From assembly GCF_000003815.2 (NCBI RefSeq), contig NC_049994.1, forward strand, positions 13,501,039-13,565,038: DNA of 64,000 nt, read 5' to 3'. Every line of letters starts with the position of its first letter. Positions within the stretch are counted from its first letter, which is position 1. Origin of the DNA: Branchiostoma floridae (taxonomy: Eukaryota; Chordata; Leptocardii; Amphioxiformes; Branchiostomatidae). Made by a program: the position numbers and the translations under genes. The notes under the pieces were generated by a model. It was not told the origin of the DNA. It searched no databases and was given only the letters and a program-made list of their open reading frames with translations. Positions 28,022 through 64,000 of this stretch are shown here, piece after piece.

Positions 28022-31000
28022 TTAGTTTTTGCCAGTGGAGAAACAGGACATTGGACCCTGGAGAAACACATCTGGGTTTTCCACATGATGGTACTCTGTC
28101 AAGTGCCGTGCTAAATCTGCTGGTGGCAACAGCCTCTCTTCCTTTGAACCACACAACATGCATCTGTACAACTGAACCTGAGGACTTTTCCTCCCTGATG
28201 ATTCCACATCTTTCTTCTGTTCTATGTACTCTGGTTGGCTCATGTGCTCTACTGTTGTCTCTGATTGGCTATTTTGAATTACATGTATGTCCAAGACCAC
28301 ATTGTCTGTTTGGTCAATAAACTTGCTTTCATGAACTGAAGGTGGCTCTTCCTTGGCATGTGATTGGTCCATTTGTCTTCTTTCCTGAAAGCTGTGCTCT
28401 AATTGGTCAGGGGGATGAGGAGGCACTGCTTGTCTGCTTTCTGATTGGCTTCCGTGTTGTACTATGGTCTCCGATTGGTCAGATATCTGACTTTGAACTT
28501 CTGCTTTCATTTTTGGTCTAAAATCATCCAATTGTTGCTCTACGCATCCCTCAATACTCTTTTCCTTCCTTTCACTAAACTGCACAAATGCTTCCATGTC
28601 CAAATCATCAATACTAACTCTTTCAAAACTGGCATCCTCTCCTTCTTCCTTGACTTCACGGTCCGCCATTTTGTTTCTTTCAAGGTCATCATCATCACCT
28701 TCAAACCACCACTTCTGACCTTCCAACTCTTCCTGCTTGATGACAGCACTTTGGTCGGTTGGTTCCATAGAACTCTCATCTATCTGTTCGACCTTCACAA
28801 CTACCTGTCCACGTTCTCTATTGGCTTCCTCTTGCGTGCTACTCCTCCTTTCTTGGCTCTCTTGCTCCCTCTGTTCTTCCATTTCAACACCATCTCCTTC
28901 TTCCTCACTTTCTCCAGACGACTCCTCGTAATCTTCATTGTACTCCTCTGGGTGCTCCTTGGCCAGGTGGTTCTCGAGTCGTCGGAAGGAGAAGAAGGTC
29001 AAGTCGCAGTCCTCACACTTCATCATGTACTTGGAACAGGCTCCGCAGATGTGGTGTCTCAGGTGCAGCTTGGAACTGTATCCTACGCCACACTTACGAC
29101 ATTTGAACCACGGATACGGGTCGACCAGGTGTTCTTGTGCACCGCCGTACTTGAACTTCGTCATTTGGCTCTGCTGATTAAAACCAGATTCTGTCTCATC
29201 TATGGGTTGCACAGCATTGAAGTGCTTTATTTTCCATGTGAACTCGTTTGAAGAGTTTTGGCCTTCTGACGATTTATCTAAGTGTTTCATTTTCCACCTG
29301 TATTCATTTGAAAAGTTTTGGCCTTTTGGCATTGCACCTGGTGAAATTTGAAAAGTTGTTAATGGTTGTATGTATGCTTTCGGCAAAATAGGCTTGAACT
29401 TCGTGACATTTGGTGTGTCCACGTGTACCGGGTCTGGAACAGATGCAGCAATGATTTTGTCAACAAACGGTCTCAAGGATATGGCCTGCGTAATAACCAG
29501 TGGCGGCGGTTCACCAGCAGATTGTGTTACGTTTGTGAACGTCGTCTCTGTTACTGTGGGTTTGGTCTTGCGTAGTCCGATAAGCTCAGCAACGGTTTTT
29601 CCTGTCTGGTATTGTATAGCGTGTCGCGAAGCTTTGAATGGTTTGTTTAGTTCCAATGGAGGAGTGCTAACACTAGAAGAAGCTTCTTCTTCTTGGGCCA
29701 CAACTGAAGCTGATAGTGCGTTAGCTTGAGTTTCAGAAGCTGCTATGAGGGGATCAGTGTTTTCTACAGCTGTTTTAATGGCAGGAACATCTTGAGATTT
29801 GTCAGTTTCTGATTCTTCTGCAGTGTTTTCACTTTGTAGGCAAGACTGAGTTGGGTTGTCTTCCCTGGAAGCATTACACTTGATAATATCTTTCTCGGCT
29901 TCCTCAAAGTCGAAGTCAAACACACCGTGCCTCTCTTTCATGTGTTCCTGGTATTTCTTGATGTGCGTGAAGTGTACGGAGCAGTATCGACAGCCAAAGG
30001 AACTGTACTCTGCAACAATTCCCTCCCTGCTCTTGTGACTTTTTAGGTGGGCACTGAGAGTGCCGGAGTGGGTGAACGACTTGCCGCAAATGTGGCACTT
30101 GTAGGGTTTGGTCTTGGTGTGGACGTTCATGTGCTCTTTGAGGTGGTACGAAAGGTTGAAGCCCTTGCCACAAATGGAACAGCTCATTTCAAATCCTTCC
30201 TGATGTGTCCTAAGGTGACGGATCAGGCTTGCACCATTGGAGTACGTTTTTCCGCACAGTCTACAAATATTATAAGTACCGTCATTGCTAGGATCGTCCT
30301 CTGAATCTGCCGTTGCTGCTTCCTCCTCTAAGCTGTCCCTGTTTCTTTTCTCACTTGTACTTCCTCCTTTCTTCGATTCCGTGCAGAAGCTGATTTTCAC
30401 ATTGGCTGGAATCGTTGTTGGCTCGTCCTCAATCTCACCCCTGTAGTGAGCCTTGACGTGGGCCTCGAGAGTGGCTCCATGGGGGAACGTACGGCTACAG
30501 AGGTTGCACTTGAACGGCTTGAGCTCGATGTGAACATTCATATGTTGCTGCAGCTCTTGAAGCTCTGAAAAGACTTGACCGCAGACGTCACAGCCATGAC
30601 ACTCGACTGCAATGGCAGGCCTTGAGGAGCCCTCAGTTGTAGACTGATCTTTTGATGTGGTTGTGCATGATGCAGGCAAAGTCGATTGTGGGGCACTCAA
30701 ACTTGCAGAAGCTGTTTTAGGAGATGGACTACTCACTCCATCAGACTTTGACAAGTTCGAGGTTTGTGTTCCTAGTCCGCCCTCCTTACGAGTGGAAGAT
30801 ATGGCTTTGAAACCCATGCCTTTGGGAAGGACTGCCACATTGGGCGGGGCATTCCGTCTCTTTATCAAGTTCATGGACGGTCCATCTGCTGCACTGGTCG
30901 TCACAATTTTCGATGCAACGTAAGCCTTCTTTGCGTTCCCTCCTTTCAGAACACTGCTGGTGTGGAAGAAGATACAGGTGATGCTGAGAGCGTTGGTGTT

Positions 31001-34000
31001 GGTCCTCTTCACGGTGATGTCTCCGTCGTTCATGTACCTGCCGGGAGTCAGAATGTTGTAGTTCACGCGGTACTTCAGCGTCTTTCCGTCCTTGAACCGG
31101 ATGTCAGAACCCGTGATCTCCGTGACATCCAGAGGGTTCCCGATCACACGGACGGCCTCCACTGCCTGGCACGACCTCTTGAAGTGGTAGTGTAACCCTC
31201 TTGCGGCCTCCTCGTCTGGAAGATCAAGGACTGGCCAGTGCCTGTTAAGGAGGTGGTCCTTCAACAGTTGTTCCGAGGCAAACGTCTTGCTAACTCTCGG
31301 AGCACACAGGCGGCACTTGTATTGTCGGTGAAACTTGAAGAGATGCATGATGAGGTACCGCAGACTTCTCAACATGCTTCCACACAAGGAGCATGTGTTG
31401 CTTCTCTCCAGGACTTCTACTGTTAGAGGCCTGTATTGTCCCCTATCGTCCTTGGGACAGTCGGAAATAACGCGACTGTCGACCATTTCGGGAAGGACAG
31501 GATGAAATGTGGAGCTTTGCTGTGATTCTGGAGTTGCTGCTGTGTTCTGCTCACCTGTTTCTGATTGCTGACGGTTCAGATCTTCCCTCCTCAATACTTT
31601 CAATATTTCACCATTTTCATTCCGAAAGACTGACTTGGACTTGCCACCAGCAATGAAATATTCATCAGAATCAACATCCAGATTGGGAAGGCATGCATTG
31701 CTTTCTGTGGCTCCACTTCTCACCTCGGTTATACCAGGACTCGGCAGTGTTTGTGAGACTTGGCAGGCTTCACCAATGTTTCTCTCTTTGGCAGGTGACA
31801 TCACAGCCGGGGAAGCTTGTTGCCTAGCAACTGTTGCCATGGAAAGCTGAACAGGAATGGCCTGTGATTGGGAACTTGTCAAAGTGACGACGTTTTGTAT
31901 CTGCAGCACAGGCAATGTGTTTGTCACAGATGTGGATGATAGTGTGGCTCCTGAGTATAGGGGAATACCATATTGCGGAGCTGACGACTGCTGTGTTAAG
32001 ACAGGGAGTTTGTGTGTGTGGGATGTGGAGGTTCTCAGGCACAGAAATTTCTGTGTTTGTGGCTGGTTTGGTGATGCATTTGTTGAATTTCTTATAGGAC
32101 TGCGTAGTTTTGGACTTTTCTCAAGAACGAAATGTTGCATCAGTGGCGCTGCGTCGGTGGCGATGTGAACCCTCTGGTATGCTGGTGTCAGGCAAGCTGC
32201 AGAACTTGTAGTGACAGCCGTGGTGGGCTGAGTTGCCATGGCAACAGGAGAAACAGAAGGGGATGTCGCTATGGCAATTCTTGCCACCGAAGAATGTGCC
32301 GGCATGAGAAAATGTTGGATCACTGGTGCGATCGGAGTTGGCGTTCTAGCTGTTGATGTCATCGCTGGCAGGATTGGTTTTGGCAGCAGTGGTTTTGGGG
32401 ATGACGCAACCTGCGATAGTGTCGGAGTAGGAAGTGGTGCCTGGCATGCTGTTGTCACGGCAACCTGGGTTGGTTGGTTCTGCACTGGGAACAGTGTTGG
32501 CATGGTAACGGGTGGACCTGCAGGGACGACTGGATCTGTGGTTGACGTAGTGATCTGTGAAGATGTACTTGTAGTAATGGCAACTGGTTGGTTCTGCACT
32601 GGGAACAGCGTTGGCATGGTAACAGGTGGAACGGCAGGAGCTGTGGTTGCCGAAGCAACCTGTGAAGGTGAGCTTGCTGTCATGGCAACACTTGAAAAGC
32701 TTTGAGCAGGAAGAGATGCTTGTGGCATGACTGATACAGGAATGGCTTTTCCCTGGTTTTGTGCCTGGAACACCTTTGGCAGGATGGCTTGTTGAATTCT
32801 GGGGGCATGCTGAGATGGTACTGTTGCCTTGGAAACAGTTACCATGGAAACCTGTGGGGTCTGTTGCTGCACTGGGATTAACCTTGGCATAACAACCTGC
32901 TGGAGGACTGGAGTGGGTGGGGTTGGATTGGTTGCCATGGCAGCAGTTGTCATAGTAACATGCGATGGTTGGTTAAGTGGTGTGAGTGAAGAAGGTAGTG
33001 TTGTCATGACAACATTGGGCATTGCTTGTTGGGATGGAAGTGATGCTGTTGCCATGGCAACAATTGCTTGTTGATTAAGAGCCGCAACTGAAGACGGCGT
33101 CACAGTCACAACAGGGCGCTGGGCTACAGAAGTTGTAGGAGTTTTACATGTCTGCGTTGGTGTTGCCTGAGTTAAGGATGCCAATCCTGCTGTTGGCATG
33201 GCAACAGGTGATGAGGAAGTCTGAAGAATCATTTGTGGATTGGTTGGCATGGCAACAGGTGATGAAGAAGATTGCACAAGACTCTGTGGATTGGTTGGCA
33301 TGGCAACAGATGGTGAAGCAGTCTGCACTTGTTGATTGGTTGGCATAGCAACAGATGGTGAAGCAGTTTGCACAACAGCCTGTGGATTGGTAGGCAAGCA
33401 AACAGATGGTGAAGCAGTCTGCACAACAGCCTGTGGATTGGTAGGCATGGCAATGGGGAATGCAGAAGTCTGTACAACAGCCTGTGGATTAGTTGGCATG
33501 GCAACAGGTGAGAAGGAAGTCTGCACAATGTTCTGTTGGTTGGCTACCATGGCAACAGGGAATGCAACTCCTGACTGTGCATTAATGGGGACAGCTATTC
33601 CTGATTGTGGGTTGGTGTTTGTGCCAAGGTTGATGGGGACAACTATTCCTGACTGTGGATTGGTGTTTGTGCTGAAGTTGCTGGGGACAATCACTCCTGA
33701 TTGTGGGTTTGTGTTCATAGGGAGGTTGGTGGGAACAGCTACTCCTGACTGTTGGTTGATGTTTGTGGCAAGGTTGATAGGGACAGCCAGTCCAGGCTGT
33801 GGGTTCATGGGGATAGGCACCCCTGACTGTGGGGTGGTATTTGTGGGCACATTGATGGGGACAGTGACTCCTGACTGTGGGTTGGTGTTTGCAGTGATAT
33901 TGGTGGGGACAGCAACTCCTGCTTGTGGGTTCAAAGGTACAGTCACTCCAGACTGTGCATTGATGGGGACAGCTATTCCTGACTGTTGGTTGGTGGGGAC

Positions 34001-37000
34001 AGCTATTCCTGACTGTTGGTTGGTGGGGACAGCTATTCCTGACTGTTGGCTGATGGGGACAGCCACTCCTGACTGTTGGTTAATGGGGACAGCTATTCCT
34101 GACTGTTGGTTGATGGGGACAGCTATTCCTGACTGTTGGTTGGTGGGGACAGCAATTCCTGGCTGTTGGTTAATGGGGACAGCTATTGCTGACTGTGGAT
34201 TGACTGGGCTAGCAATTCCTGACTGTTGGTTGACAGGGACAGCTATTCCTGACTGTTGGTTAATGGGTGTAGCCACTCCTGACTGTTGGTTGACGGGGAC
34301 AGCTATTCCTGACTGTTGGTTGACGGGAACAGCTATTCCTGACTGTGGATTGATTGGACTAGCAACTCCTGATTGTGGGTTCATAGGGACAGCCACTCCT
34401 GATTGTAGGTTGGTGTTTGGGGGCATGTTGATGGGAATAATCACCCCTGTCTGTGGGTTCACCAGGAAGAACTGCTGCTTCACTCCCAGCGGTGTTGACA
34501 CTGGCATCTGTTGAACAACAGCAAGCTGAGGCTTTAGGGGGGCCGGAGCAATCCTCTTGTACTTTCCACAGGTGCTATCTAAAGGTGATTTTTTACCCGG
34601 AGTCATTGGTGGAGTGGTTGGCTCCTGCTTGATAGTTAGCTGTGACATCTTACTTTGGTTATCTGTTCCCGAGACAGCTGAGCTGTCAGTACCAGGTGCA
34701 GCACCTGAAACACATACAAGCAGTTACAAGTTTTAGATGCCATCATAGGAACATGTATACCACTTGCTTTGTTGTAGATCAACATGTTGTATCCTGTGTT
34801 CATGGGGCTTGCCACAACCCTACGATTGTACTGGAACTCTATTGTGAATATTTTAAATGATCATTAAAAAAAACAAGCTATGTCTGAAGGTAGGGATGTA
34901 AGCTCTGTAGATTAAGATATGTGAAAATATGTTGAAATACAGTGATTATTTCTAAAAAGTTTGCTCAACACAAGGAGAACAGTCCGAACAGACCTCTGAG
35001 CTCTGAACTAAGTTGATGGGAGAAAAAGGTGTCTGTCCTAGGGGATGGCTGTGAACATAAGCTTTGTAAACTTTTGGGTTGTATTCGGGAGGGAAACACT
35101 TGTCAGGGAGAGGGTTCAGGGAGAGGGTTCCTTAATTTTATAGTCTGGGAAAGAAGCTGCTGCTGAGAAGGACATAAGACTGGTATTTGGACTGTGTGAT
35201 GATATAGCTGGACTTTGGTACAAAAATTAGTACCCTCTATGCTAGCAGTATATTATTAAAGTAGCTAATGGCCACTTGTTTGTCTTTAGACACATTGCTA
35301 ACTTCTATATCAACGAAAGAAATGCAGTCCTAATGTGTGAACCAGGGCTCTAGCCAGCGTCCGTTTTTCCGTCAATTGACGGAAATTTGCTGTGTGTGAC
35401 GGAAAAAATTTAAAATCAATCCGTCAACCTTGACGGACAAGAATCTGATGAAAGCTCTTTGGTGGAAGCTACAGGCGGCTTGGGGACGCCATCCACGGCC
35501 GTAAAAGCCACACACTGTTTGTTCTGCTATTGTTATGATTCTTGACAATGTGTGTCGGTGCCCTTTCGCATACGATAATCTCATTAAAACCCATTTTTCA
35601 AGGTCTCAGTTCAGTCTCTCTAACTCCTGGAATAGTGTGCTCGCGACAATGGAAATTGGCTGACGCCTGACGGAAAAAAATTTCGGGCTGGCTAGAGCCC
35701 TAGTGTGAACTCATGAAATGTAAGCTGCAGATCAACTTAGGGCCCCTGAAGGGAACCTTGCCATTCTAATGTTTTGTGACAGAAAAACACCATCATTATT
35801 ACCCAACCAAGCGATGATGTATTGTTTTGTGACAAATAAACAGCCTACCCAGTGCAGATGTATTGTCCTGTCTCAGGGTGTCCTCTATGGCTTTGTTGAT
35901 GGCAGCATGATAAAACCTCCCTGGGAAGCGTCCCCGTTGCCACTGGTCAGGGTGATGCTCACGGATGTGGCGGTACATTGTTTTCCGCCGGGGGTACGCC
36001 TTGTTGCAGAAAGGGCAGCAAAATGGCTTCTCTCCTGAAAAGAGAGGATACCATACAGAAAATTCAGGTAAAGGTACGGTCCAGGTCCAGCAGATCAGGT
36101 CCAGGTCTGGACTTGAAACTAATTGGCTGTGAAAGATTGTGAATGGGTGATACTAAAAGCAACTGTCCATTTCCCTGCAAAGGATTCTGTTTGGTGTAGC
36201 ATCCGACTTCTACTGGCATTTCAAAATCCTATCTGCTTCTATCTTTTATGTTTCTTTATGTGACTAAGGGTCTCACATGTGTGTTTCCTCATCTGAATAC
36301 AGGTCTCATTTGTATGTTTCCATGATGATATGGGTCTCACATGTGTCCCCATTTATATTTGGGTATCACATAGGTGTTTTATGTGTTTCCATGTGTATAA
36401 GGGTCTCACCTGTGTGTTTCCTCATGTGAATCTGCATCTCGCTCGGTGTCTTGAAGCCCTTGCTGCAGGTGGGACAAGGGAACAGCTCCCCAGTCTTAAG
36501 TTTTTTCGAGGCTGCCTCCTCCTGTCCGTCTTCAGGTGGAATGCTCCAAGTTGTACATTTCCTCTTGGGTCTGATCCAATGGAGGCAAAGAAGGGAGAGA
36601 AATTATGGCACGAATGACAATACCTACACAACGAGTCACTAGGATGCTATGGACATGACAGTAAACACTCCAAATAAGAACAGGATCAAAAGTTATGTGA
36701 GGAATAAACAAGACCACCAACATGCGAACAACTCACCCCAGGTAATTGGATTGGAAGGATTCCACTTCTCGGCGTCTTTGATTTTAACATTATTGAATGA
36801 TACTAATATACAGGTTTTTCCTTGACGTCATATAGTAATCATAGTTTTAATCCCGTTTTCCATATTGGCAGGTAATGGGATTAAGCAATGGCATCTTCGT
36901 GTGCTTTATGGGCATACATTATTTATTCATTCATTTAGATTTACCACGTTTGTTGAAGGATTGACATAACAGGTGACTATCACCTTTTCAAATCAAGATG

Positions 37001-44380: not shown

Positions 44381-45964
44381 TTAAGTTTCTTCCTGTTGGT
44401 CATCAAGTGGCGCATGAGTGACAGTGATGTGTCGCTTCAAATGGGTCATCTGTGTCGCTGCGTAGCCACATTGCTCACATTTATACGGTTTTTCGCCGGT
44501 GTGTGTGGCTATGTGCTGCCTTAGGTGGAACAAGCGTCGCGAAGAGTAGTCACAAAGTTCACAATGAAACGGTTTATCCCTACCAGAGTGCATATTATCC
44601 ATATGTTCCTTCAGACATGACTTAATTGCTGTAGAATAGTCACAGATGTCGCACTTGTGGGGTTTCTCGTCGGTGTGTTTAGCTTGGATGTGCCGCCTCA
44701 GGTGAGTCTTTCGTAGGGTCCGATAGTCGCAGAAATCACATTTGTGCGGCTTTTCCCCTTTATGGATGCGCACGTGCTGTGTCAACTGAGACGCATGCGC
44801 AGCAGCGTAATCACAAAACGGACATTTGTGCGGTTTTTCACCGGTGTGAGTTTTCATGTGTATCTTTACATCAGATTTGCGGGCTCCAGAATAATCACAC
44901 AGCTCGCACTTGTATGGTCTATCAGTACTATGCACTACCATATGCTGTTTTAGATCAACCAACATGAGTCCAGAATAATCGCAAAGTTCGCATTTGTAGT
45001 TCTTCTCACCGGCGTGTCTGGCAATGTGTTGTTTTAAATGCTGTATTCGTGCTGCACTGTAATCGCAGAGTTCACATTTGTATGGCTTCTCGCTACTATG
45101 TACGACCATGTGGCGGTTCAAATCATCCGGCCATGACGCGGCGTAGTCACAAACTGTACATTTATACGGCCTCTCGCTAGTATGTGTGGCGATGTGTCGC
45201 TTCAGGTTAGATAGCCGTCCTGTAGCAAAACCACACGTATCACAGTTGTACGGTTTCTCACCGGTGTGGATGGACATCATGTGCCGCGTTAGGCCAGACT
45301 TGAGTGTCGCAGCATAGTCACAGAGTTTACATTTGTAAGGTTTCTCACCACGGTGCCTGGCCATATGAGTCTTGAGATAACTCGCCTGAGAAGTAGAATA
45401 ACCACAGATTTCACATTTGTGTGGTTTCTCTCCAGTGTGTTTAGCCATGTGCCGGACTAAATGTTGCCTTTGATACGCGGAGTAAGCGCACAACTCACAC
45501 TTGTAGGGCTTCTCGCCTGTGTGAGAGTTCACATGATTTACTAAACATCGTTTGCGTGCTGTGGAAAAGTCGCAGTATGTACAGGTGTATGGCCTGTAAT
45601 CGCTGTGTTTGCCCATAATGTGCGTTTTTAAGTTAGCCTTCTCCGATGTGGAATAGTCGCAACGATCACACTGAAACGGTCTCTCACCGCGGTGCGTAAC
45701 CTTTACGTGCTTTTTGAGAGCGTACTTGTTTCCCGTCGAATAATCGCACTGGTCGCACATAAACGGTTTCTCACCGGTGTGTTTGACTCGGATGTGTTGT
45801 GTGAGGTGCCATACCCGTAGCGAAGAAAAGTCACACTGTTCACATTGGAACTGTCTCTTGCGTTTAACATTTGCTTCAGGTTCTGGATCGTCGTCGCACG
45901 ATGAAGAGCTCCGCTCAGTCCCCGTGTTTTCTTGATTTTTACTTTTATCGTTTTGTGTCTCCAT
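44381..45964 (-). CDS. C2H2 zinc-finger protein with 17 fingers, single exon
   Basis: A 527-residue ORF from ATG at 45964. The first about 37 residues are polar and acidic with a basic KRKRQ just before the fingers. It then holds 17 near-continuous C2H2 fingers joined mostly by HTGEKP[Y/F/H] linkers. Nearly all have CxxC followed by [D/G/A][Y/F][S/A/R] (for example CELCDYS, CDQCDYS, CEQCGYA), a pattern seen in REST-like fingers and large lineage-specific C2H2 families. Finger contact residues differ, so a specific long DNA site is plausible. No effector domain such as KRAB, SCAN or BTB is present. It lies on the same strand as the large zinc-finger gene but is not similar outside the fingers. 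DNA binding in the nucleus is inferred; the target is unknown. Confidence 0.9.
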   Translation of the reverse strand: METQNDKSKNQENTGTERSSSSCDDDPEPEANVKRKRQFQCEQCDFSSLRVWHLTQHIRVKHTGEKPFMCDQCDYSTGNKYALKKHVKVTHRGERPFQCDRCDYSTSEKANLKTHIMGKHSDYRPYTCTYCDFSTARKRCLVNHVNSHTGEKPYKCELCAYSAYQRQHLVRHMAKHTGEKPHKCEICGYSTSQASYLKTHMARHRGEKPYKCKLCDYAATLKSGLTRHMMSIHTGEKPYNCDTCGFATGRLSNLKRHIATHTSERPYKCTVCDYAASWPDDLNRHMVVHSSEKPYKCELCDYSAARIQHLKQHIARHAGEKNYKCELCDYSGLMLVDLKQHMVVHSTDRPYKCELCDYSGARKSDVKIHMKTHTGEKPHKCPFCDYAAAHASQLTQHVRIHKGEKPHKCDFCDYRTLRKTHLRRHIQAKHTDEKPHKCDICDYSTAIKSCLKEHMDNMHSGRDKPFHCELCDYSSRRLFHLRQHIATHTGEKPYKCEQCGYAATQMTHLKRHITVTHAPLDDQQEET

Positions 45965-46664
45965 TGTTTTGTCTTTACGTACACAGCTAGGGTATAGCTT
46001 TGAAACACAAACAGTCCTAACTTGTTGTTTCTCCGCTGTTAAAGTTGCGTGACGTTTCCAGTCCCCTATATAGTCGTCTTCTGCGCAACGTTAACCGACG
46101 CAATAAAGTCGGATTGTTTCTCGTTTGGGGTTGACCTTCAGACGTATCCCGTACTCCCTTAAATGATAGATAAAGTAACAATCATTGAACAATTAACTTT
46201 CGATCAAAAGATATTAAAAAAAAAAACGCTTAACAGTAAATCTAGGTGGGCATGCAATGCTTAACAGTAACTTATATAACCTATATCCTGACGATGTTGA
46301 TATAGCTATACTATACACGGCTTCCACATGTTTCAAAATCATTACAGATTCTCATTTTTCACCGCTGAAAACGCTGTTTGTGTGGAAGTAGAGGGATGGG
46401 CTCCGCCCCCAATACCGTACCCTGGACACAGGGTCACACAGCGGATAACAACTCAATGCCCCTACGCCCTCAACCTGTGGGATTTACGTTCATCTTATTT
46501 GCACATTCCTATTTCAACACGCAGCCTATAATGGTGTTTGGTTATTGATAAGTCATGTAATGTTGACAGGTGCGCCGTTTCCCTCCTTCTGGCCTCGAGA
46601 GTTGAACAAACTCAGCCGCTTCAGCAAACAACCGGGGTTAAAATTCAAATACTACTCCTTGAAC

Positions 46665-46859: not shown

Positions 46860-47803
46860 AAACATAACGTACACTACTTTACCCGGGGATTGTTTTGCTC
46901 TCACGGTGCCCTACATTTCCATAGATTCTACTCAAGTAAAAAGTACGTAAACTTACCGTGTTTGGTAACTTACGCTTGATATAATAATCTCCGCGCGATT
47001 AAAGAAACTTTGATGAAAAGTTGAGCTCACTTGCCGCATGGCAACAGGTGCCCCGCCATCTTGTCTGGGAATACCTGGGTTGGCGCGCAAACAACATCCC
47101 ACAATGCAACACCATAAAACCTAACGGTACCGCCCCAGGACCGAGCAGATGTGGAGTTTGAGATTGTTTTGCCAGTCTTCTTACAGCAATTAACTTCCGT
47201 ATGGATTTTCTAGTGGTGCAAGATTCGTATAGAGAAATTTACGCACGTGGACAGCAGTGACTACACATGTTAACGTCAACTTGTCTTTTCCTATACCAAA
47301 GTCATCCGTAGCCCGGCTACGTTTACAATTTAATTTCGTTTATAGCTTATAGCACATTCTAATCACTATCGGAGGCACTCGGTGGCAGCTGGCCATCACA
47401 CCAAACCATTTCCACACACTATAACTCTATGATGGACAGCCACTCCTTCTGATACTCTATAACTGCCTTTTGAATCTATCTAACGCAGAAGCCCTCTATA
47501 CCGTTGCGTTGCTACGTGGTTTTAGCGTCACTTTGTGAGATCAAGATGCGTTTTGACCTCCTTGGCCGGAGATGAACTCTGTTCGAACACTGAACAAACG
47601 AACTCGTTTATTCCGTTTCTATTGTTCTGTCACACTTGCCCTTGACAACGTCGCCATGTTGGATTCGAACATACCACAACAAAACTTCAAACTTCACGAT
47701 GGACTTCATGCGTGAAGAAGAAGTTAGGTGATTTTTACGGGCCTAATGAGGATAGCGGAACTCACTATTTGTTAAAGAGATCTGAGTGATTCTTATTTCC
47801 CAA
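46860..47803. other. Upstream region and 5' untranslated part of the MARCH gene
   Basis: A GCCATCTTG YY1-type site lies at about 47056-47064 and a second, weaker GCCATGTTG at about 47653. Either could mark the transcription start of the gene at 47804. No other gene was recognised. Confidence 0.4.
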
Positions 47804-50573
47804 ATGTCAGGGCTGGAAGATGAAGAAAAGAGTCATTTAAAAGTTAGGTGTTCTTGTGTCTCAAATGAGGAGGACATAGACGATGCGAGTGAGTGCCTTA
47901 GTAGTCAAGATTTAAGGAATGGTCTTCGGACAATTTCTAAGGAGGTAAGAAAAGTACTAAGCTGTCCAGCCATCTCACCTAGAAAAGAAGAATGTTGTAA
48001 GAAACCATGTTCATCCAACTGCTTGTCAGACGAATCGGCCACAGGAAAGGAAGACACAAACGCCGAATCACCCGAACCGACAGAAGAAGTTCAAGGTGAC
48101 TTACAGGTGGTTCAAAGTCACGCGTCTATCATGTGTCAATCACGTGCGAGGAGTCGACAGGATAGCGAGTCGACCGCGAGTTCGTACCGGTTCATGTGCA
48201 GGATCTGTCACGGCGGGGAAGATGAGGAAGATGCAATGATCAGCCCGTGTCTGTGCTCAGGGTCTCTACAGTACTGTCACCAGGAGTGCCTCCTCAAATG
48301 GCTCGGTTGGAAAAGTACATGGACTTGCGAGTTGTGTTCTCACGGCTTCAGCATCGTAAACTACGGCCTGAAAAGACCGTCAAGGGTAAATATTCGTTAA
48401 TTTTTCAACCTAGAAAAAGAGTTTATTGTAAATTGTAATGAAAGTCAGAAATAAGGGGGAAATGTCAGTCTTCAAGCACAGTGTTGTGTCAATTCGTAAA
48501 TAGTATTGTGAACAACCCACGTGATTCACCCATCATTTCCATACATTTTATATTCTATCTTTACAAGTCTGTTTGGGAACACAATAGCTACCAAGTTTTG
48601 GACTGTATCCTTCACACTGCAACGACAACTAGCGACGCTCAGTTATAGTGGAAGTAGAACCAATCGGAATATTCCACAGAAGGTAGCAGGAGAATAACGC
48701 AACTTTGACAGGTGAAAACTTTTGGCTGTGTGTAAAAGACCTACAGAGATTGAAACTTAATTTTTCTCTCGTTGACAGTGGAAATGTGTCAAACTTGACG
48801 CCACGGAAAGATGGTCCATGGTTGTCGTCCTCCTCGCGCTGTCCGCTATCATCGGGTCCACTTACTTCCTGGTCTGGTCCTTCACCAATCCCATGTCAGA
48901 ACAGCAGAAAAAGTCGCCCGAATTCCAAGGTAAACTGGAGGAAAAAGTTTTTGTTTTCTCTGGCATTCATGATGCTTACATTCAGAACGTTTATTAAGTA
49001 TGTTATCACTTGGCTAACAAATAGATTTCATCCTGAATTTGCCTGCAATGCAGATTAGTCTTGCTTAGCTTTTGGTCCGCTTTCCAACGTTGCTACCTTG
49101 CCAACAAACATTCGTGGGGCCAGCTAATCTCCAAGCTGATCCTACGATAGCATAAGATAGTATCAAAAGCTAGCAAAGGAGTGTATCCAGCATATAGGAG
49201 TGTGTAGGGCTAACATTGTGGTACTATCATATGTATCCTCTGCTTGGATTAGGGGCGAGCGTGACTATTTCTAGTAGTAGTATGATACCCAGGCGTCCAC
49301 GCCTCAAACCCGAACCATTCTCTATTCCCAGTGTGCTACGCCCTGTATGCGATATTGAACTTGTTCTCTGTCGGGATCGTGCTATTCTACGTCCGACCGA
49401 TCGCAGCGCTCGTCAACAGGTGGCGGGCGATCAACCAGCGACTACAGGTGAGCAAATAGCTAACCAGACGGTCTTCCGTTCAAGAGCGACCTCTACCGAC
49501 TCTGTTTAGGCAGAGTAACATTGAACGATGAACAGAAGGCCTAGGCTGGCCTGGTATCCAATTTCAGAGATCTAGACTCGGCAGCTAAATTGTAATACTA
49601 ATAGAGTTGGATACTAGTACCAGGCCAGCTTAAGCATACGGTACGTCGTTCTATGTCACTGTGCTCGAAGTCGCTAAATGTCGCTCGTCAACAAAAGACC
49701 GTGAAGTATGGATACCAGGATAGGAATAATCATCACAATATATCTAAGTACTGAAAGTATTGAAAGATACCAGGCCATATGCATGACAAGCCTACTAGTA
49801 TCCAACCAAAGACCAGATTTCCGTTCATGATTACATTGCATCCGTAGTACTAGCACTGCGTATCGTTACTTGTTCTACAACTGTCAGCTAGTCCAGTGCA
49901 GACTAGAACATGGAAAAATCCTGTCAACAGTGCAAAGTTTTCTACTGTTGACAGGACGAATTTAGTGTAGTTCATTAAGCACAAGTAACAACGAGTGTAT
50001 AAGTGCATCAGTAGTATCTTATTGATTAATACAAAGAGGAAAACAACAGACAAGAGACTGTATTCTCTATATAGGTACAAGATTACGCAGGTCGGTTGAA
50101 GAAAAGGCGCCTTTCAGAGTGTTCAAGTATCCTGGTCCTCCCTTCTACAGAGGTTCTGACGTCATCAGTACAACTCGTTCTCATGGACAATGTCTCGAAC
50201 GAATCACGGGTAGGTGGGGATCGCTTTCTCAAGTTCGAATTCGTCCCCATTTTATCGTTGGAAGGGCTTGTATCCTTGTTCGTATGAAACTTTGAGCGAT
50301 GTATGTGGGAAATATACGTAGCATTATGACAATTGTGATTGTAATTGTGAGAAGATGGCACAAACTTCAGGCAACTTGTTTGTCGTACTTATTGATGTTT
50401 AATGTATTAATTGGTTTCGAATTCGTGTTTTTATTTTACGTATGCTCGCTGCAGGTGTAAAAGAGTCCTACATCTTACGAGAAGTCTACCTGAAATCATC
50501 ACGGCTGTCAACGGACAAAAACCGTTGGTACGACGTCCTACCGTACAAGATCGCCGTTAGGGACTTATATTAA
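47804..50573 (+). CDS. Membrane-associated RING-CH (MARCH-type) E3 ubiquitin ligase
   Basis: Exons 47804-48385, 48779-48929, 49332-49447, 50075-50213 and 50455-50573 (phases 0, 1, 0, 1), about 368 residues. The first in-frame ATG is 47804. An acidic, Ser-rich N-terminus precedes a RING-CH finger at about residues 132-178 with the full C4HC3 set (CRIC, CLC, HQEC, CELC). Two helices follow (WSMVVVLLALSAIIGSTYFL and CYALYAILNLFSVGIVLFYV), then RWRAINQRLQVQDY. This resembles the RWQAVNQ...V..Y segment of MARCHF4/9/11, so that subgroup is favoured. Such proteins ubiquitinate membrane proteins in Golgi and endosomes. The end of exon 4 is uncertain: the consensus donor at 50209 would put the last exon out of frame (Val then stop), whereas a weaker GTGGGG donor four bases on keeps 38 further codons open. 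Confidence 0.82.
49545..49629. repeat. Short MITE-like hairpin in a MARCH intron
   Basis: GCTGGCCTGGTATCCAA and its partner TTGGATACTAGTACCAGGCCAGC face each other across about 45 bases. Pieces of a similar sequence (GGATACCAGGATAGG, CTAGTATCCAACC) recur at 49708-49806. Confidence 0.5.
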
Positions 50574-55588: not shown

Positions 55589-55673
55589 ATGGACTTGCCG
55601 CGGGTCGGGAGCAGCATGGCGGAGGTGTCCAGGTGTACGAGAAGGAAACAAGCTTGTCCGCGGCGGAAAAAAG
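55589..55673 (+). CDS. ZEB: ZEB (zfh1) transcription factor, first coding exon
   Basis: From the second in-frame ATG (55616) the exon reads MAEVSRCTRRKQACPRRKK and ends in phase 1 at AAAAAAG|GTGAGA. Vertebrate ZEB1/ZEB2 begin MADGPRCKRRKQANPRR, and to my knowledge their first intron also falls just after this segment. An upstream in-frame ATG at 55589 adds MDLPRVGSS; ZEB2 likewise can start a few residues earlier. RRKQxxP is the NuRD-contact motif. ZEB proteins are two-cluster zinc-finger/homeodomain repressors that bind paired CACCT sites and control mesenchymal and neural programmes. The zinc-finger and homeodomain exons are beyond the window. The exon is CpG-rich, as expected for a promoter-proximal exon. 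The call rests on one short motif plus intron position. Confidence 0.8.
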
Positions 55674-58600
55674 GTGAGAACGATCTTAAACCATCTTGTC
55701 TTTAAGTACAGACGATAGATCTACGTATGTCTTGTACAGAACTCACCGATCATGGCCGAACTCGGCCGGGAAGCTGCGCTATGGACGGCTGTCCGCTCAC
55801 CTAACGGTACCGGGCAACTTTCCCCCTGTGTGGCTCCATTGATCTAGGTTAATGCGTACCTGGGTTGGGCCGTTGCCATCGCTTGTCGGGGTCACCCGGC
55901 GGGAAAATCCATCAAAATTCTGTCACGACGGGGAAAAGATAAGGCCAAAGCTTCGGTACAGTCTCAGATCGTGTGCGAATTTTGTGCTTTGTAATACCGG
56001 AAAAGCGTTAGGGGTTGACACCGGTCCAAGTTGGCCCCCGCCTAAGCTGTAGGTCCCCCGCCCTCGCCCGTACGTGGCTGCCATACCTGGTCGAGCGCAG
56101 CTGTCTACGCCTCGAGCGAAAATACCTGCCCAATTCCCTCACAATGTGTCGGAATCGATGCCCTGTTGTCTTCTCATAGCTTCACTTTCTCTTATCGTTC
56201 CGTAGGTTGAGGTGTGTATTTTTGCTGGGTTTGTTTGGGGCGAGGCAAACTTGTCCAGGCCCGTTCATTACCTGGCCTTATTTGTCAGCGGCTCCCTGCT
56301 TATTTATTTTCCGCACATGTCAGACATTTCTGCCACTTGGGGACTGGAGAAAGTCACTACCAAATCTTACATAAAACCCAAGTTTACGTTAAGAAACAAC
56401 CTTGATGTGTGTCAAAACATGTTGTTTACAGTTTCATATTCCAAATGCGTTCATCAGTTGTCGTTGTAGGCGACAGGCCCGGGACCGGGCGTTAGCTTTT
56501 GTTTGTCCCGTAATTTGTTTACCGTGCGTCTGTGTTCCAAACTAGTGAAAGTGTAAACATCTTCACCGTACCAACTGTGTTGTTGCGGAAATGTTGTTTT
56601 CTTGAATGAGTGGATCATGTTTTTATGAGGGTTGTTAGAATTTCGGGGCTTGAAAGAGCGGCTGGAGTTTCCGTGGGGTTGTCTTTGATGTACCTGACCG
56701 CACCGCGAGACCGTCACGTTTATTTTCACACCGTCTGCTCCTCAAACGAGCGAAAGTAAAACATTTCTTTGTCAAACAAAGGTTTTAACACAACGTGGAC
56801 GCCGTCCCTGACCGTTTTCCAGTCTATTTCCCTGGATTTGAGCGCCGATATCGGCGGAAACTCGGCTGTAATCCCCTTCAGAAGCTGCGCCACGAAGTTT
56901 GACATGTTGTAACGAATGACCCACAGGTGTAAACAAAGGAAATACGAGCGCCGATATTTTCTGCCGCCAGCCGTGTCTAAATTTGGTCTCCCCGGCGACA
57001 ACCTCGTATTTGACCCTTGCATATTGACAAGAAGCTACCAAGAAAACAAGGTGACAGGAAAAGTCGTGGTTTTCCTGTTCTTAGGTGTTGTTGAAAACCT
57101 TGTACTACCTGGTACTGCCACAAGCTTACAGCAACCCAGTGGGGGACCAAACCTCAAAAAGTCTTGTACCCTTGCAAGTTTCTGCTCCTTTCTGTCAACT
57201 GTGATCATTTTAGAAGTCCTGGAATACACAAAACACAGCAAACTTGACAGAAAACTTCAGGTATTGGTGAGAGTTTGTGACACATTTTCATTGTTTTAGT
57301 TTTGGGAACTCCAAACTTCAAAGGGAAAGATGTGTGAAAACCTAATCCCTGTATTAATGAGATCAGAAAACCTCTGAATGGAGGAGGATGTTTTTCCTCT
57401 GTGGGTTTTTTTGTTACCTATTTCCCTTTGTGTCACCTGGGTTTGGGGGAAGAAGATTGCACCCTCCTGCTGTTATTTGTTTGTTCATGTGACTGTCACT
57501 GCATGAATTCTTTCCCAAACTGCCTTCCCCTGTGAAGAACACCAGATGTCAAGCCAACCTGGGTTCACATTTCTCCCTTAGGGACGCTCAAAAACAAGGT
57601 GTGCAAGACTTCACCCTTACTCCCACACCTTTCCTACACCTCCCTGCAAATTCTGCTCTGGAAAAATCTCCTGTTTAGTGACATTAAAGGAAGGTATCAA
57701 TATTGTATGCGTTTGGGAGCACTGCTTAATTGAGGAATTGGGTTGGGAATGTTAAAAAGCATTGTTTAATGGCCCACAGGTGGAAAGTGTTACCGGTTGT
57801 AACCGGAGCCCTGCACGCCCTTACCTTGCAAATTTCACATACCTGCGGCTAGAACATGGCGCCTGCGAGCCTTGGCACCTTGACAGGAGAAGGAGGAAAG
57901 AAACAGGGCTGCCAGGTCACCTTGTTGTCAAGGTGTGTCATGAAGGAAAGCAGACAACTTACCTAAAAGAAAATAATGTTGTACCATCAATCGAAGATGA
58001 AATCTTATAGTAAGGTGTTCTAAGATGTCACAGCAACAGAAAAGAAGGAAAGGGATATTAAGTTTTTAAGATGTTGGAAGGGAGAATGTAGGAGTAGAGA
58101 TATCTATTGAAGGTGGGACCGAAAGTTAAACCATCTGATATTCACTCCACGTGGTTTCAACATTGATTTTTACCTGCTCCCATTTTTCCCCACTAAGTGC
58201 ATCCGGACCTTCCGGTCGTTTTATTGTCAGACGAGCCAAGACCTGTCAAAACGTTGGCCTCGGGATTGACGTAGCGGCTGCGTAGAGATTGGCTGACGGG
58301 TTGAAATTTAACTCATAATAATAACTGTCATATCTTCCACATTCCCATATATTGTAAAGCGCATCCCTCTCGTTCATTTCTCTTTTTTCTTTGGTTGGAA
58401 AATTCTTTGTGAAGTAACTAGTAAAACGTGAGTCACTTGTGTGTCACCCTGTCAAACTATGATTGGGTTGTGGGTGCCATTTAGGTTTCAGTTGTTTTTC
58501 TCGGGGAGGATTTGGGTAAGCACACCTAACCAGCAACAATAGTTAAGCCCATGATTAGATTAAGTTGTGTATTCAGACGACATAATGCTGGCTCTGTTCC

Positions 58601-61256
58601 GACTATGACTAAGCCAGGGCTGTCACAGACTTGGTTAATTTTTCTCCTATTTGATTGGGAATTATTTCCCAGCCATCTTCTTTGTCATCGTCTGTCGCTG
58701 TTTAGACGTTTGAAGGGTGGGCGACAACAACAAAAAAAGCGTTCTGATGATGCTATGCAGTCGTCACGAGGCCTATCTCGATGAAATCCCACGCCGCCAG
58801 TTCAGGGATAACACGGACGTCAAAGTGTCTGCTATCAATTTAAATGTAATTATTTCGGCACACACACCTGCACCTGGCTGCCCACCTTTTTGCCAGATTG
58901 CTCTCCTTCACTCAGCCCCCTGCTCACACTTTCATTATCCAACTAAGTCAACATTTGCTGGCGCTTCATTTCCGAGTAACCTTTGAAACATCGTCCTCCA
59001 AATTCGGGGCTTAACAGCGAGGCTAAAAGGAACGTAACTCTGCCTCACCCTGCCAAGGTGACCCCCGCACTAATCTTTCCTACCACATTAAAAGAGCGGT
59101 TTCCACCTCAAAGTAATGTACCAATTAATATCCACTCTTACTCCTCTCTGCACTTTATGGCATGGAGTAGCCAACGGCATAAATTTTCACCTCTTGACTT
59201 GATCGCGGTGCGAGTTTCGGCGTTTCGCAGGTCTTGCAGGTGGATTATTTTCTCCAGGATGTGGGAGCACACCTTGTGGTCGGAGTGAGGCTCCAGGCCC
59301 TTCAACACAATTGCTGTGAGGGCTTTTGAGGCAGGGTGGCCCTTCACACGTGGCGGCCCCCTTTCTTTACCTGTAACAGGAGCCCCCTGTCCGTGTGCTC
59401 CATTGTTTGTCTGGGTACACGCAACACCTGAGTTCTCGACGAGCTTTCCTTTGTTCGCTGGGGATAACGTTACAGTTTGAGGTGATAGTATTTTGATTGG
59501 TTGTAGCCTAAACTCACGAGGAGGTTGTTAAGTTGTGAAGAGAGTTGGTGGAGAGAAAAGTTTGCCGTGCGGTCCCGGCGTTGTTGACGTGTGGCAGGGG
59601 CTTAGACAGGCCCAGACAGACGGGTATTTGGCAAGGTTTGGCTGATAGAAAAAGGTGCCAATGTTAAATACCTGGTGGCTCCGACTTATCGGCAGCTTTT
59701 ATTGCAAAGTCAGGCCCGGTGCTTATTGAAATTCCGTTTGGCGTCAGCCCTGGTTTTATCGTCCGTGAATTCCGGACAAACTAAAAAGGTGTTTTTGAAA
59801 GCACCGGCGGCCACAAAGCGAGGTGGGCTGAAAGCAGGCATCCTTGTAGGTAATGGGGCGACTATAAAAGGGACTCCAAATCACCTGTGCCTCGTGTTTG
59901 TCAGTAAGGAATAAAAGGGGGCCGGGAATAAAGAAGAATAAAAGCTGCATCTGTGCAACAGTCCATACGAGTGGGGATGAAAAAGGTACGCCGACTACAA
60001 AGGGATGCCAGGTGGACGGAGAGAGACGCATACAGGGACACCTAAATTAAGAGGGAGGGACCATTTGGGCACGGGAGAGGCCATCCCATGGAGACATTGT
60101 TGTTGTTGATGTATATGCTGGAAATGTCCCATTGTCAGGTGGAGATGTCTCTACACACCTTTCTCTGCCGCTTCACGGTTGGTTTGGGGGGTGAGTGGGG
60201 AGGGGGCAGATGTCAGCGCGTGTGATCCATTCAACAATCGTCCCCCGGGCAGGCGCGACACTGCGCTGCCCCCCGCTCTTTTGTGAGGCGCGGAGTCATC
60301 ACCCATTGTCCTGTTGCACGTAATAGCTCCAGCCCACCTACCATACAGTCTACCCACAGCAGCGGGAACAACAACAAGCCCTCACTGATAACTTTTACAG
60401 CCTTGCCGGTGATTCTTCCCAACTCCTGTTAATCAGTTTGATGGCATGGCAACTAACGACTCCACATTAATGCCTGTTTATCCAGCGATTTCCAGATTTG
60501 TTTATACGGAGCCCAAGCACAGGAAAACACCCTAACCTTTGATAGCAGCCAGGAATGCACAAACTTTATCAGAGGCTGGCGCCAGGCTCCACCTTACTTA
60601 GTCTACCTGGGGGGAGTTTACGTGACGGTTCAGAGGAACTTGCCCGACGGTTCGGGGGTGTTGATGTTCCTATCAGTCGTACCTGGCAGGAAGGACCGGG
60701 GGTTGTTGATGATCTGGGCGCCAGCTGGGAAGGGAAGGGGCACACGTCACGTTTCCTCCCCACCTTTCTGGCAGCGTTTATCTGCCTTCCTCTCCTGCCG
60801 GCTTTCATAAGGTGCATCCGACTGCCGCCTTTTTGGGCCACTTTTCCGCCACCGACTTTTGACATGTGGGCGTCCCTTTGGCAGGACTTGAAAGGGGAGG
60901 GTTTTTCGAACTTGGGATATCCTTGTGTGGCAGGGATGATTTAAAGTGGTTGGGTCAAGGTGCGGGTTTTGATGTGCAGTGACCATTCAGTCTGATAAAA
61001 CCTTTTCTGGCACAGCTTTTTCCTTTTCGTTTTGTTTATCGGCAGGGAAAAGTGAAACTCGAACTTGCTGTATTGTTGATGGAAAGGCAAGGAAAGGTGT
61101 GTTTTGGTGCTGCACTCTGCAGAACACGTCAGTAACACAGTGCCATGGACAGAACATGTTGTTTATTTCTCTTATATATTTGGCACTAAAATGTCGGCCT
61201 AGAAACTGAGACAAGCCATCAAGGCTAGGACTTACAAAGTGGCCAACACAAACCTG

Positions 61257-61602
61257 TCAAGTGCTTTGACAAAATAAAGCAAACAGGTAAAACTAAAAGC
61301 GGAAAAAAAAATCAGTGATGGGTTCCACAAGGTTGTCTGTTTTGTGTACCAGAATCAAAAGAAGAGGACACCAAAGCAACTGTGTACTTAATTAAAGTCA
61401 GAAATGTTAATTCAAGTGCTTTGACAAAATAAAGCAAACAGGTCACTCTCTGTCAGTCAGTCTATACAGACTATGACAGCAAACAGGTAAAAGTAAAAGA
61501 GAAAAAAACATTGATTGGTCCCACAAGGTTGTCTGGTTTGTGTACCAAAAGAAGGGAGCATCAAAGCAACTGTGTACTTAATTAAAGTCAGAAATGTTAA
61601 TT
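61257..61602. repeat. 155-bp tandem duplication in ZEB intron 1
   Basis: TCAAGTGCTTTGACAAAATA at 61257 recurs at 61412. Both units continue through AAAGCAAACAGGT, CCACAAGGTTGTCTG, TGTGTACC, AAAGCAACTGTGTACTTAAT and GTCAGAAATGTTAATT. The second unit has an extra insertion (TCTGTCAGTCAGTC region). Confidence 0.9.
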
Positions 61603-62182
61603 TCACCCTGCACTGTTAATGGCGTGTGTCTAATCAGTTGTGCCATTTACCCCATAAGGAGTGGCAAACAAACCTGGGACCCCCCACATCCTGTCAAAAG
61701 TAGTCCCGCTCACTTCTGGTCCTCACTCGACACTTTTCACACCTCGCTCTCCCAGCCAAATGTTCCCCCTGTCACCGGTGCTCCCGAGTTAAGGTGCTCG
61801 GGACACGTATTCGCACCTACCTCACACCTAGGTTTGTTTTCTCTGGCATACCTCAGCGTCTACTCCTAGGGATGTTTGCTATCGGTTTACCTTCCTCTGT
61901 GCCAAGGTACCAGGCTTCTAGAGCTCTCCATAAGTCATTTCCTAATTTGTCAAGGTATGGCATGTTGTCCCCTACCTCAACCCCCGTGGGGCCTGGTGAA
62001 TGTATCGACCTGCCAGGTGAAGATAAAGCCCAACCCCTGGCGTAAAGGGCTTGGTAACCCGATCCTCACGGCTTTCCTGGTTGTTTAGATCTCCTCCTGT
62101 GTACCTGTTCCAGGACCTTCATACTGGAGCTGTGAAGAACCGGCCTGAAAGTGAAACACCTTCTTAGACTTAGACTAGTGAC

Positions 62183-62452
62183 AGTAGAGTAGAGTTCTTT
62201 AGGCAGGTAGAAATTCTAGTTTCCAGGTTGGACAATTCACTGTCAGACATTTCTGGTTTGGATTGCATTGCCTAGTTCAAAGGTGGAGAGAGCTATTGAA
62301 GCCGGGCTGACATACCTTCTTTATGGCTTAGAGTAGAGTAGAATTCTTTAGGCAGGTAGAAATTGTAGTATCCAGGTTGGGACGCTCTCAGAAGTTCAAT
62401 TCAATGTCTGACATTTCTGCTTTTAGACTGCAGTGCCTTATTCAAAGGTGAC
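62183..62452. repeat. ~148-bp tandem duplication in ZEB intron 1
   Basis: AGTAGAGTAGA[G/A]TTCTTTAG, GGCAGGTAGAAATT, CAGGTTGG, GTC[A/T]GACATTTCTG and TTCAAAGGTG occur in the same order in both units (from about 62183 and 62331). Each unit carries one CAGGTA site. Confidence 0.8.
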
Positions 62453-64000
62453 TTGGGCAAGAAAGCATCATCATTCTGCTGCCTGGTATACCATATTGCA
62501 TTGTAAAGCTGCGGACTCCGACAGCTGGTTATAACACCTTGATATTTTAAGATTGGAGTGCTGGATTCTAAGGTGTGTCCCTGTTAGTGGTTGGTTAGGC
62601 TGTCGGTATGCATGTGGTGTGAGTGTGCGGAAGGGAAACTCCTGGTGGGACCAACCTCCGAGATGTCCCAATTTGCTTACACATCAAACAAAACAGGCCA
62701 AACGGTTACACTGACCAGGAAATCATGTGCCCCTGACTCACCCATCCTCCTAGGTGAGCACATACAAAGGACACCCCCCCCCCCCGCACCAGCCTTCACA
62801 ATCCCACAGACAAGGGAAAGTCATCGGGACAATTTTTCCCACGTCATGCCGCTGGCATTCGGTCAGGCAACCTTTCTCACCTATCCTTTTATTTGTAGAT
62901 CACGGGACGGGGGTTATTTGCAGACTCAGTGTGTGTGAAGGAGTCAGAATGCATTTTCAGGACTGCCGAGTTCAAAGAAGCCTCTGTTAGGTCTTTATTT
63001 GGCCATTGGTGTTCACATGACACGGTACCATGCCCCATCTTGTGTTGACTTCTCGCCAAACCAACAACGTAATGTCTAACCCAGACGTTACAGCTTCAAA
63101 CATGACACACAGCTTGCACCAGGTGGAAGATTTTCTGCTGGTAACACTTCCGCTCAGGTTGTTTTTCTTCTTCCTCTGCTGATCAGATCAAATCAAAGCT
63201 TGCATTGTCACCTGGAAGTGACTGGGTGCCTCTAGTCTCTCTGCGTCCTGGTGTCTCTGGGATCTTTGAGCCCCTGGTACCAACTGACACAGTATACATC
63301 ACATTATTACAAAACATCAATAAGGCCATACCAATACATTTCTTTGGTTTTCAGACATTTTAGAGTAAAAATAAAGTAAGAGAACAACATAAAACTAGAG
63401 GAACTTGAGGAAAACTTGAATGTAGCTTCTGTTTACAAATTTATTTCAAATTTTTTTAAAGTTTGCTGCTTCTTCGAGTTTGCAGTAGGATCAGTAATAG
63501 CAACACCTTGGAAGTTTTAAAACACCATGAAAATTTCAAAACTCATGTTGTATGTTCACTACCTGAAACTTTGTGTACCAAGGTATGCACATTTCCAATA
63601 GACGTTTATGTTATTATGACTCTTTCACTTCTGGATCATTTTTTAAGAATCAGATATGAAAACCGAGGAATTGAATTGGTGTGGCCCATAACGTCACACG
63701 TTGGCAGCAGGCATAGGTGTCCCTGACTGTAGGAATTCAGCCCCCAAACCACGTAGTACACCAGTCTCCATGTCCTGTCCTCCAGTATGCTGGACATCCC
63801 AGTTATGCCGGGCATCTCGGTTCGGTAACGTATATTCCGTGGACTCGCAACTACTGTGCAAATAGTAGTTATGCAGTGCCCGTGTAACAAATTGTTCTGT
63901 GGTTACAAAAACTTGGTTACAGAAACAAGGATGGCTGTTTGGGAAGGTGATGCATTAATTAACATCATGGTCTTAATTAAGGGAATCTGGAGGGATGATT

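Follow-up and report, generated by a model that had tools for sequence, protein, structure and literature searches.

The first intron of the ZEB gene (zfh-1/deltaEF1/SIP1 family) of the amphioxus Branchiostoma floridae was found to be rich, over most of its approximately 52 kb, in CACCT and in CAGGTR (CAGGTG or CAGGTA), the words of ZEB-type binding sites. The window analysed, a stretch of 64,000 nucleotides (C16:13501039-13565038 in an assembly of 513 Mb and 431 contigs), holds coding exon 1 of the gene and about the first sixth of the intron. Judging from the sequence, direct autoregulation of ZEB via this intronic field of words would be the best explanation, and one that we regard as just probable.

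The identity of the gene, which the original prediction had called ZEB with the site-rich region placed after its first exon, was established from the DNA downstream of the window, for which the window numbering was carried on through the next 120 kb of the contig (extended coordinates). C2H2 fingers were located at extended positions 110,999, 111,089, 111,606, 111,693 and 111,777, a homeodomain at 112,947, and further C2H2 fingers at 114,572 and 115,087, so that the homeodomain sits between an N-terminal and a C-terminal finger cluster (finger spans 110,999-111,777 and 114,572-115,087). Pfam searches of the encoded frames returned zinc fingers and the homeodomain, and the top PDB matches of the homeodomain were ZEB2 (2da7, E 1.2e-11) and ZEB1 (2e19, 5e-10). 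Two finger pairs share 33 of 48 residues, which is the two-cluster design of ZEB; the gene is thus a ZEB gene, and the likeness of the clusters suggests that both could read CACCT. The 28-aa peptide of exon 1 gave no match in Pfam or PDB; its segment CTRRKQACPRR may resemble the N-terminus of vertebrate ZEB. A search for an acidic exon between 55.7 and 107.6 kb, in which small exons can escape, yielded one convincing candidate and three weaker ones, and the former, an acidic stretch at extended 107,650-107,811, is the likely exon 2. It was also noticed that a 47-base stretch at extended ~107,561-107,607 is closely like the start of exon 2 and is perhaps a duplicated or alternative exon. Intron 1 would accordingly run from 55,674 to ~107,650, about 43.6 kb beyond the end of the window. 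The parts of the gene inside the window are as follows.

55589..55673, plus strand, ZEB coding exon 1 (MDLPRVGSSMAEVSRCTRRKQACPRRKK, phase 1 donor GTGAGA), end 55673
55674..64000, plus strand, in-window part of ZEB intron 1, with 32 CAGGTR and 57 CACCT

In this in-window part (8,327 bases, both strands), a hexamer search found 32 CAGGTR sites, 13 of them CACCTG/CAGGTG and 19 TACCTG/CAGGTA, with 12 on the plus and 20 on the minus strand. The original prediction had counted 31 against about 8 expected, which is close to the exact numbers (8.1 expected with uniform bases and 7.5 by base composition), and it had called CACCT pentamers common, as they are (57 vs 21.9 expected). All 26 positions that it listed match a site of the kind named within 15 bp (56094 is 56084, 57836 is 57840 and 58156 is 58171; the rest are within 3 bp); missing from it were the sites at 57258, 61284, 61484, 62204, 62353 and 63560. 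The complete set is given below, each line with coordinates, strand and word.

55857..55862, minus, TACCTG (CAGGTA on the minus strand)
56084..56089, minus, TACCTG
56123..56128, minus, TACCTG
56269..56274, minus, TACCTG
56691..56696, minus, TACCTG
56924..56929, plus, CAGGTG
57106..57111, minus, TACCTG
57258..57263, plus, CAGGTA
57434..57439, minus, CACCTG
57777..57782, plus, CAGGTG
57840..57845, minus, TACCTG
58171..58176, minus, TACCTG
58865..58870, minus, CACCTG
58871..58876, minus, CACCTG, directly abutting the site at 58865..58870
59237..59242, plus, CAGGTG
59368..59373, minus, TACCTG
59425..59430, minus, CACCTG
59669..59674, minus, TACCTG
59882..59887, minus, CACCTG
60009..60014, plus, CAGGTG
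60136..60141, plus, CAGGTG
60604..60609, minus, TACCTG
60680..60685, minus, TACCTG
61284..61289, plus, CAGGTA, in local duplication copy 1
61484..61489, plus, CAGGTA, in local duplication copy 2
62014..62019, plus, CAGGTG
62102..62107, minus, TACCTG
62204..62209, plus, CAGGTA, in local duplication copy 1
62353..62358, plus, CAGGTA, in local duplication copy 2
63120..63125, plus, CAGGTG
63209..63214, minus, CACCTG
63560..63565, minus, TACCTG

Dinucleotide shuffles of the 8.3 kb gave 10.3 ± 3.3 CAGGTR with a maximum of 22, none of 500 reaching 32, and a second-order Markov model gave 13.6, none of 300 runs reaching 32. The remaining 55.7 kb of the window held 80 CAGGTR (52 ± 7 in shuffles). Genome-wide (513 Mb), 341,061 CAGGTG and 333,538 CAGGTA were counted, equal to 1.31/kb or 10.9 per 8.3 kb, and these counts are inflated by minisatellite-like arrays in which CAGGTG or CAGGTA recurs at regular intervals, seen on contig 1 (C1) at ~51.1-51.4, 95.1-95.2, 208.2-208.9 and 213.7-214.9 kb. 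Two local duplications in intron 1 (window 61257-61602 and 62183-62380, with a spacing of 149-200 bp) carry CAGGTA copies; they contain 4 of the 32 sites, and 28 sites remain in 7.8 kb after repeat masking. Among the densest stretches of 300 bp are those within window 57.6-58.1 and 59.2-59.5 kb.

The enrichment was not confined to the start of the intron, where the original prediction had placed a control region, but extends over the greater part of the 52 kb. Over the interval 55,674-107,600 (49,891 read bases, the intron holding an assembly gap), we counted 161 CAGGTR (3.23/kb; mean of dinucleotide shuffles 52, z 13.5) and 242 CACCT (4.85/kb; shuffle mean 110, z 15.1), so that the excess first noted at the intron start stood against a shuffled background across the intron. 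CACCT was divided equally between the strands (121/121), and CAGGTR was found 74 times on the plus and 87 times on the minus strand. The densities were 1.42 CAGGTR and 2.13 CACCT/kb in the left flank (z 3.9 and 1.1) and 1.33 and 2.05/kb in the right flank (z 2.4 and -0.3). Because the first 8.3 kb had been selected on density, a fair test has to use the part of the intron beyond the window. At the flank rate, these 41.6 kb would hold 56.9 CAGGTR and 86.6 CACCT; the counts were 129 and 185 (Poisson 1.7e-16 and 3e-20, overdispersion ignored). In bins of 4 kb, CAGGTR numbered 9-18 across 56-108 kb, with the exception of a bin half occupied by the gap (1), and 1-10 outside. A densest-segment scan of 184 kb returned 55,314-108,338 for CAGGTR and 55,623-108,397 for CACCT (log-likelihood ratios 30.9 and 46.0, the maxima of 20 random placements each being 10.5 and 10.9), both segments ending within 0.6 kb of exon 1 on one side and of the likely exon 2 on the other. 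Behind the latter, at 107.8-110.95 kb (3.1 kb), there were only 3 CAGGTR and 5 CACCT, and the probability of so few at intron-1 rates is 0.009 and 0.002, respectively. Two arrays of a ~21-bp unit containing AGTAAGTG, in opposite orientation, were observed at extended 68,345-68,580 and 71,772-72,010, where they border a low-complexity, gapped stretch of the intron.

An equal density in unrelated introns of the genome had been named as one of the findings that would speak against the prediction; in the windows compared, it was not seen. As controls, we used 8 random windows and 11 windows beside transcription-factor loci (two Meis/PKNOX-domain, one NFI and five Pax-domain), which adjoin DNA-binding-domain exons and were chosen by this adjacency, not as established introns; the five Pax loci were taken from 9 family matches, a second locus on contig C14 and a weak match on C5 being among those left out. 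The transcription-factor windows pooled to 1.20 CAGGTR and 1.71 CACCT/kb and the random ones to 1.31 and 1.91/kb, and the z for CACCT was +12.4 in intron 1 vs -1.7 and -0.5, respectively. When these 19 fetched windows were joined with 14 flank bins and scaled to 8 kb, the 33 controls had a mean of 10.2 CAGGTR (standard deviation 4.5, maximum 21) and 15.3 CACCT (standard deviation 5.2, maximum 25). Six intron bins covering 48 kb had 32, 16, 22, 30, 18 and 31 CAGGTR, four of them above the control maximum, and 55, 21.5, 39, 32, 39 and 36 CACCT, with five above it. Rank tests leaving out the first 8.3-kb bin gave p = 0.0005 for CAGGTR and 0.0004 for CACCT.

With no motif preset, CACCT came out at the top of all 512 pentamers in the comparison of intron with flank (2.33-fold; mean of all pentamers 0.97, standard deviation 0.25), and the leading hexamers were ACACCT, AAGGTG and CAGGTA. 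The 15 one-base neighbours of CACCT pooled to 1.07-fold and ranged singly from 0.52 (CGCCT) to 1.79 (TACCT, itself a ZEB-type word), with CACTT at 1.56 and AACCT at 1.35, and the reversed word TCCAC stood at 0.91-fold. Among the NACCTN hexamers, CACCTT had the highest fold over flank (3.11; 96 vs 31), with TACCTG at 2.62 (84 vs 32), AACCTT at 2.20, CACCTG at 2.13 (77 vs 36), CACCTC at 1.95, CACCTA at 1.8 and GACCTG at 0.83. ZEB1 is described as reading two kinds of element, the E-box CACCTG/CAGGTG and the Z-box CAGGTA (PMC3979034); for Zeb2, binding to spaced CACCT is described (PMC10048071). The set of TACCTG, CACCTT and CACCTG would be a better fit to ZEB than to Snail or T-box proteins alone, and ZEB would be the most economical single reader of the enriched words. 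After CACCT and TACCTG had been masked, weaker excesses of AAAGG, AACAA, CACTT and TGACA persisted. These words resemble cores of other developmental factors, and such leftovers would be in keeping with a regulatory intron.

We therefore propose, on the evidence of word content, that intron 1 may be a distributed field of ZEB-type words that makes the gene responsive to its own product. ZEB, through its two similar zinc-finger clusters reading CACCT, would bind many of the ~240 CACCT and ~160 CAGGTR, and the bound protein would tune the output of intronic enhancers to the dose of ZEB. The CAGGTR subset could also be read by Snail proteins, and the AGGTGTG subset by T-box proteins. Binding of ZEB at these words, selection keeping them and the sign of the feedback are what we infer from the pattern. 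Both signs of self-control occur in the family, positive in mouse Zeb2 (PMC10048071) and negative in worm ZAG-1 (PMC4256384), and for the amphioxus gene a negative sign (dose-dependent) would be slightly preferred over a positive one because ZEB proteins are described as most often repressing (PMC4256384). In a variant of the proposal, which we think unlikely, the whole intron would be a dosage sensor, in which hundreds of weak, spread words act jointly and not via discrete enhancers, either by graded occupancy or by titration of ZEB and a corepressor along the 52-kb transcribed domain, which would be bounded near exons 1 and 2. No such mode of self-control by a transcription factor over a whole intron was found among the literature matches listed.

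Several observations weigh against autoregulation as proposed here. 1) Close pairs of sites, as expected from the paired CACCT sites of the original prediction, did not exceed chance: of 212 gaps, 49 were 50 bp or shorter vs 46.4 ± 5.4 under random placement, and the gaps were as random at 15-100 bp, with 136 vs 128 ± 4.8 at 200 bp. The number of sites per 1-kb bin varied mildly (variance/mean 1.57, to which the assembly gap contributes), and discrete paired-site enhancers are therefore invisible in the sequence. 2) Words outside those that ZEB is known to read are also raised, namely AACCTT (2.20), AAAGG (1.91), CACTT (1.56), AACAA (1.47) and TGACA (1.40), as is the T-box-like AGGTGTG (36 vs 6.5; 34 vs 3.8 when repeat-masked, 9-fold over flank). 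3) Part of the intron is nearly ordinary, since overlapping 8.3-kb windows at 63.7-76 kb had 1.91 and 1.59 CAGGTR and 2.54 and 3.5 CACCT/kb. 4) The 5.6 kb preceding the start codon show no enrichment (9 CAGGTR, 12 CACCT), and the mouse site is promoter-proximal. 5) Mild excesses occur elsewhere: CAGGTR in the left flank (the z of 3.9 given above), TACCTG in the transcription-factor windows (z 2.4) and, among random windows, CACCTG (z 2.8). 6) On the plus strand of contig 1, three of 25 bins of 8.3 kb have at least 12 CAGGTR (21, 16 and 12), and tandem arrays account for the two densest (21 and 16). With dense single bins elsewhere, it is the whole intron that stands out, more than any one bin of 8.3 kb.

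Among the alternatives, the one that survives best is a functionless local quirk, in which a bias of composition or mutation, or old decayed repeats, raised AGGT words; we consider it doubtful. It would accommodate the unpaired sites and the rise of the unrelated AACCTT, AAAGG and AACAA, and a third-order Markov model of the 8.3 kb yields 26 CAGGTR, close to the 32 observed (43 of 300 runs reach 32). This model is, however, no neutral control because it already embeds most of the motif core. A quirk of this kind is hard to reconcile with the neighbours of CACCT pooling to 1.07 and the reversed word at 0.91, with the equal strands of CACCT, with enrichment limits near exon 1 and the likely exon 2, and with the drop at 107.8-110.95 kb. 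Repeats as the origin were rejected, the masking of tandem and self-repeats having left the density unchanged (3.29 CAGGTR/kb in the intron vs 1.42 and 1.18/kb in the flanks).

CAGGTG and CAGGTA are Snail-type words too, and the intron could have kept them mainly for Snail-family proteins or another reader of CAGGT, as an input from Snail to ZEB. The 2.1- and 2.6-fold enrichment of the two words agrees with this reading, which we nevertheless judge rather improbable: the word with the top fold, CACCTT (96 vs 31), does not contain the CAGG half, a rise is also seen for CACCTA and CACCTC, and other E-boxes are flat (CAGCTG 17/17, CATCTG 28/31) or low (CACGTG 4/12). The same E-box counts led us to reject a general bHLH reading. 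The original prediction offered negative feedback or a Snail-ZEB control region; the excess is real and centred on the ZEB core, and Snail alone leaves CACCTT unexplained.

It is very unlikely that the field is an ordinary property that developmental genes of this genome have in their long regulatory introns. Intron 1 is indeed also rich in other words resembling transcription-factor cores, and single windows beside such genes come near it, one Pax window with 2.62 CAGGTR and 2.88 CACCT/kb and one Meis/PKNOX window with 3.12 CACCT/kb; the pool of the 11 windows, chosen by adjacency, was nevertheless at the low densities reported above. Control of the intron by T-box proteins, with a large share of the CACCT excess being AGGTGTG half-sites, has an even smaller chance of being right. 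The steep rise of AGGTGTG and that of AGGTGTGA (7 vs 2.0; 7 vs 1.3 when masked) would be explained by it, but GGTGTGA without the leading A is at 11 vs 7.7, and TACCTG (84 vs 32) and CACCTG (77 vs 36) fall outside the T-box consensus. As AGGTGTG covers only 36 of the 242 CACCT sites, T-box proteins were kept as a minor rival. Finally, MAGGTR is also the core of splice donors, which CAG|GTA and AAG|GTG fit, and the words could be recursive splice points or U1 sites protecting a very long intron, as the excess of AGGTRAG on both strands together (36 vs 15.8 expected) and the preference of AAGGTR for the plus strand (90, vs 66 on the minus strand) might suggest, yet this is the least credible of the readings, since the transcribed strand is not favoured by CAGGTR (74 plus, 87 minus) or AGGTRAG (12 plus, 24 minus, so that the donor-like excess is mostly on the wrong strand), GTGAGT is at 27 vs 28.4, and GTAAGT (52 vs 28.8) owes its excess to two repeat arrays (masked 24 vs 21.7, 6 of them plus).

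Three open frames elsewhere in the window were also noticed. That at 28022-34723 on the minus strand (2233 aa) combines several C2H2 fingers with a long series of short INQQSGIAVP-type repeats, which is underlain by a 30-bp tandem repeat at 33900-34412, and it seems to encode a large zinc-finger protein without a break. A 569-aa frame at 44381-46090, also on the minus strand, consists mostly of C2H2 fingers. The frame at 47786-48400 on the plus strand carries the motif CRICHGGEDEEDAMISPCLCSGSLQYCHQECLLKW and resembles an exon of a RING-variant (MARCH-type) ubiquitin ligase.

Homotypic clusters of binding sites, with a local excess of one factor's word over a few hundred bases to a few kb, resemble the ZEB intron in having such an excess in non-coding DNA; they differ in that the amphioxus excess spans ~52 kb and has no excess of close pairs. 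Among the ZEB genes of vertebrates, autoregulation of ZEB1 (ZFHX1A) by its isoforms was reportedly found by Manavella et al. in 2007, and the feature shared with the amphioxus proposal would be a ZEB gene acting on itself. In the mouse, the strongest ChIP-seq (chromatin immunoprecipitation sequencing) peak of Zeb2 is described as lying at its own promoter, and deletion of the site lowers Zeb2 mRNA (Birkhoff et al. 2023, PMC10048071). As described there, mouse Zeb2 is likewise a member of the ZEB family whose own locus carries ZEB-type sites, which point to direct self-control; it has one major promoter-proximal site, with positive feedback known from deletion, whereas the amphioxus case is known from its sequence and has hundreds of words over the ~52-kb intron 1, with an upstream region that is not enriched. 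Caenorhabditis elegans ZAG-1 is described as repressing its own promoter (PMC4256384), and would share with the proposal for amphioxus a ZEB-family gene in an invertebrate controlled by its own product; a whole-intron field is absent from the description of ZAG-1 in that source. ZEB autoregulation is thus already known in mouse and worm, and the whole-intron architecture is the unusual part. Among the literature matches listed (titles and abstract starts), we found neither a 52-kb intron marked by the word of its own factor nor ZEB self-control in an invertebrate chordate. ZEB genes are drivers of cell migration and neural fate. A ZEB gene with a first intron this rich in the word of its own product would make it possible to ask if ZEB feedback is older than the vertebrates, and if broad fields of sites that are not closely paired are a real regulatory architecture.

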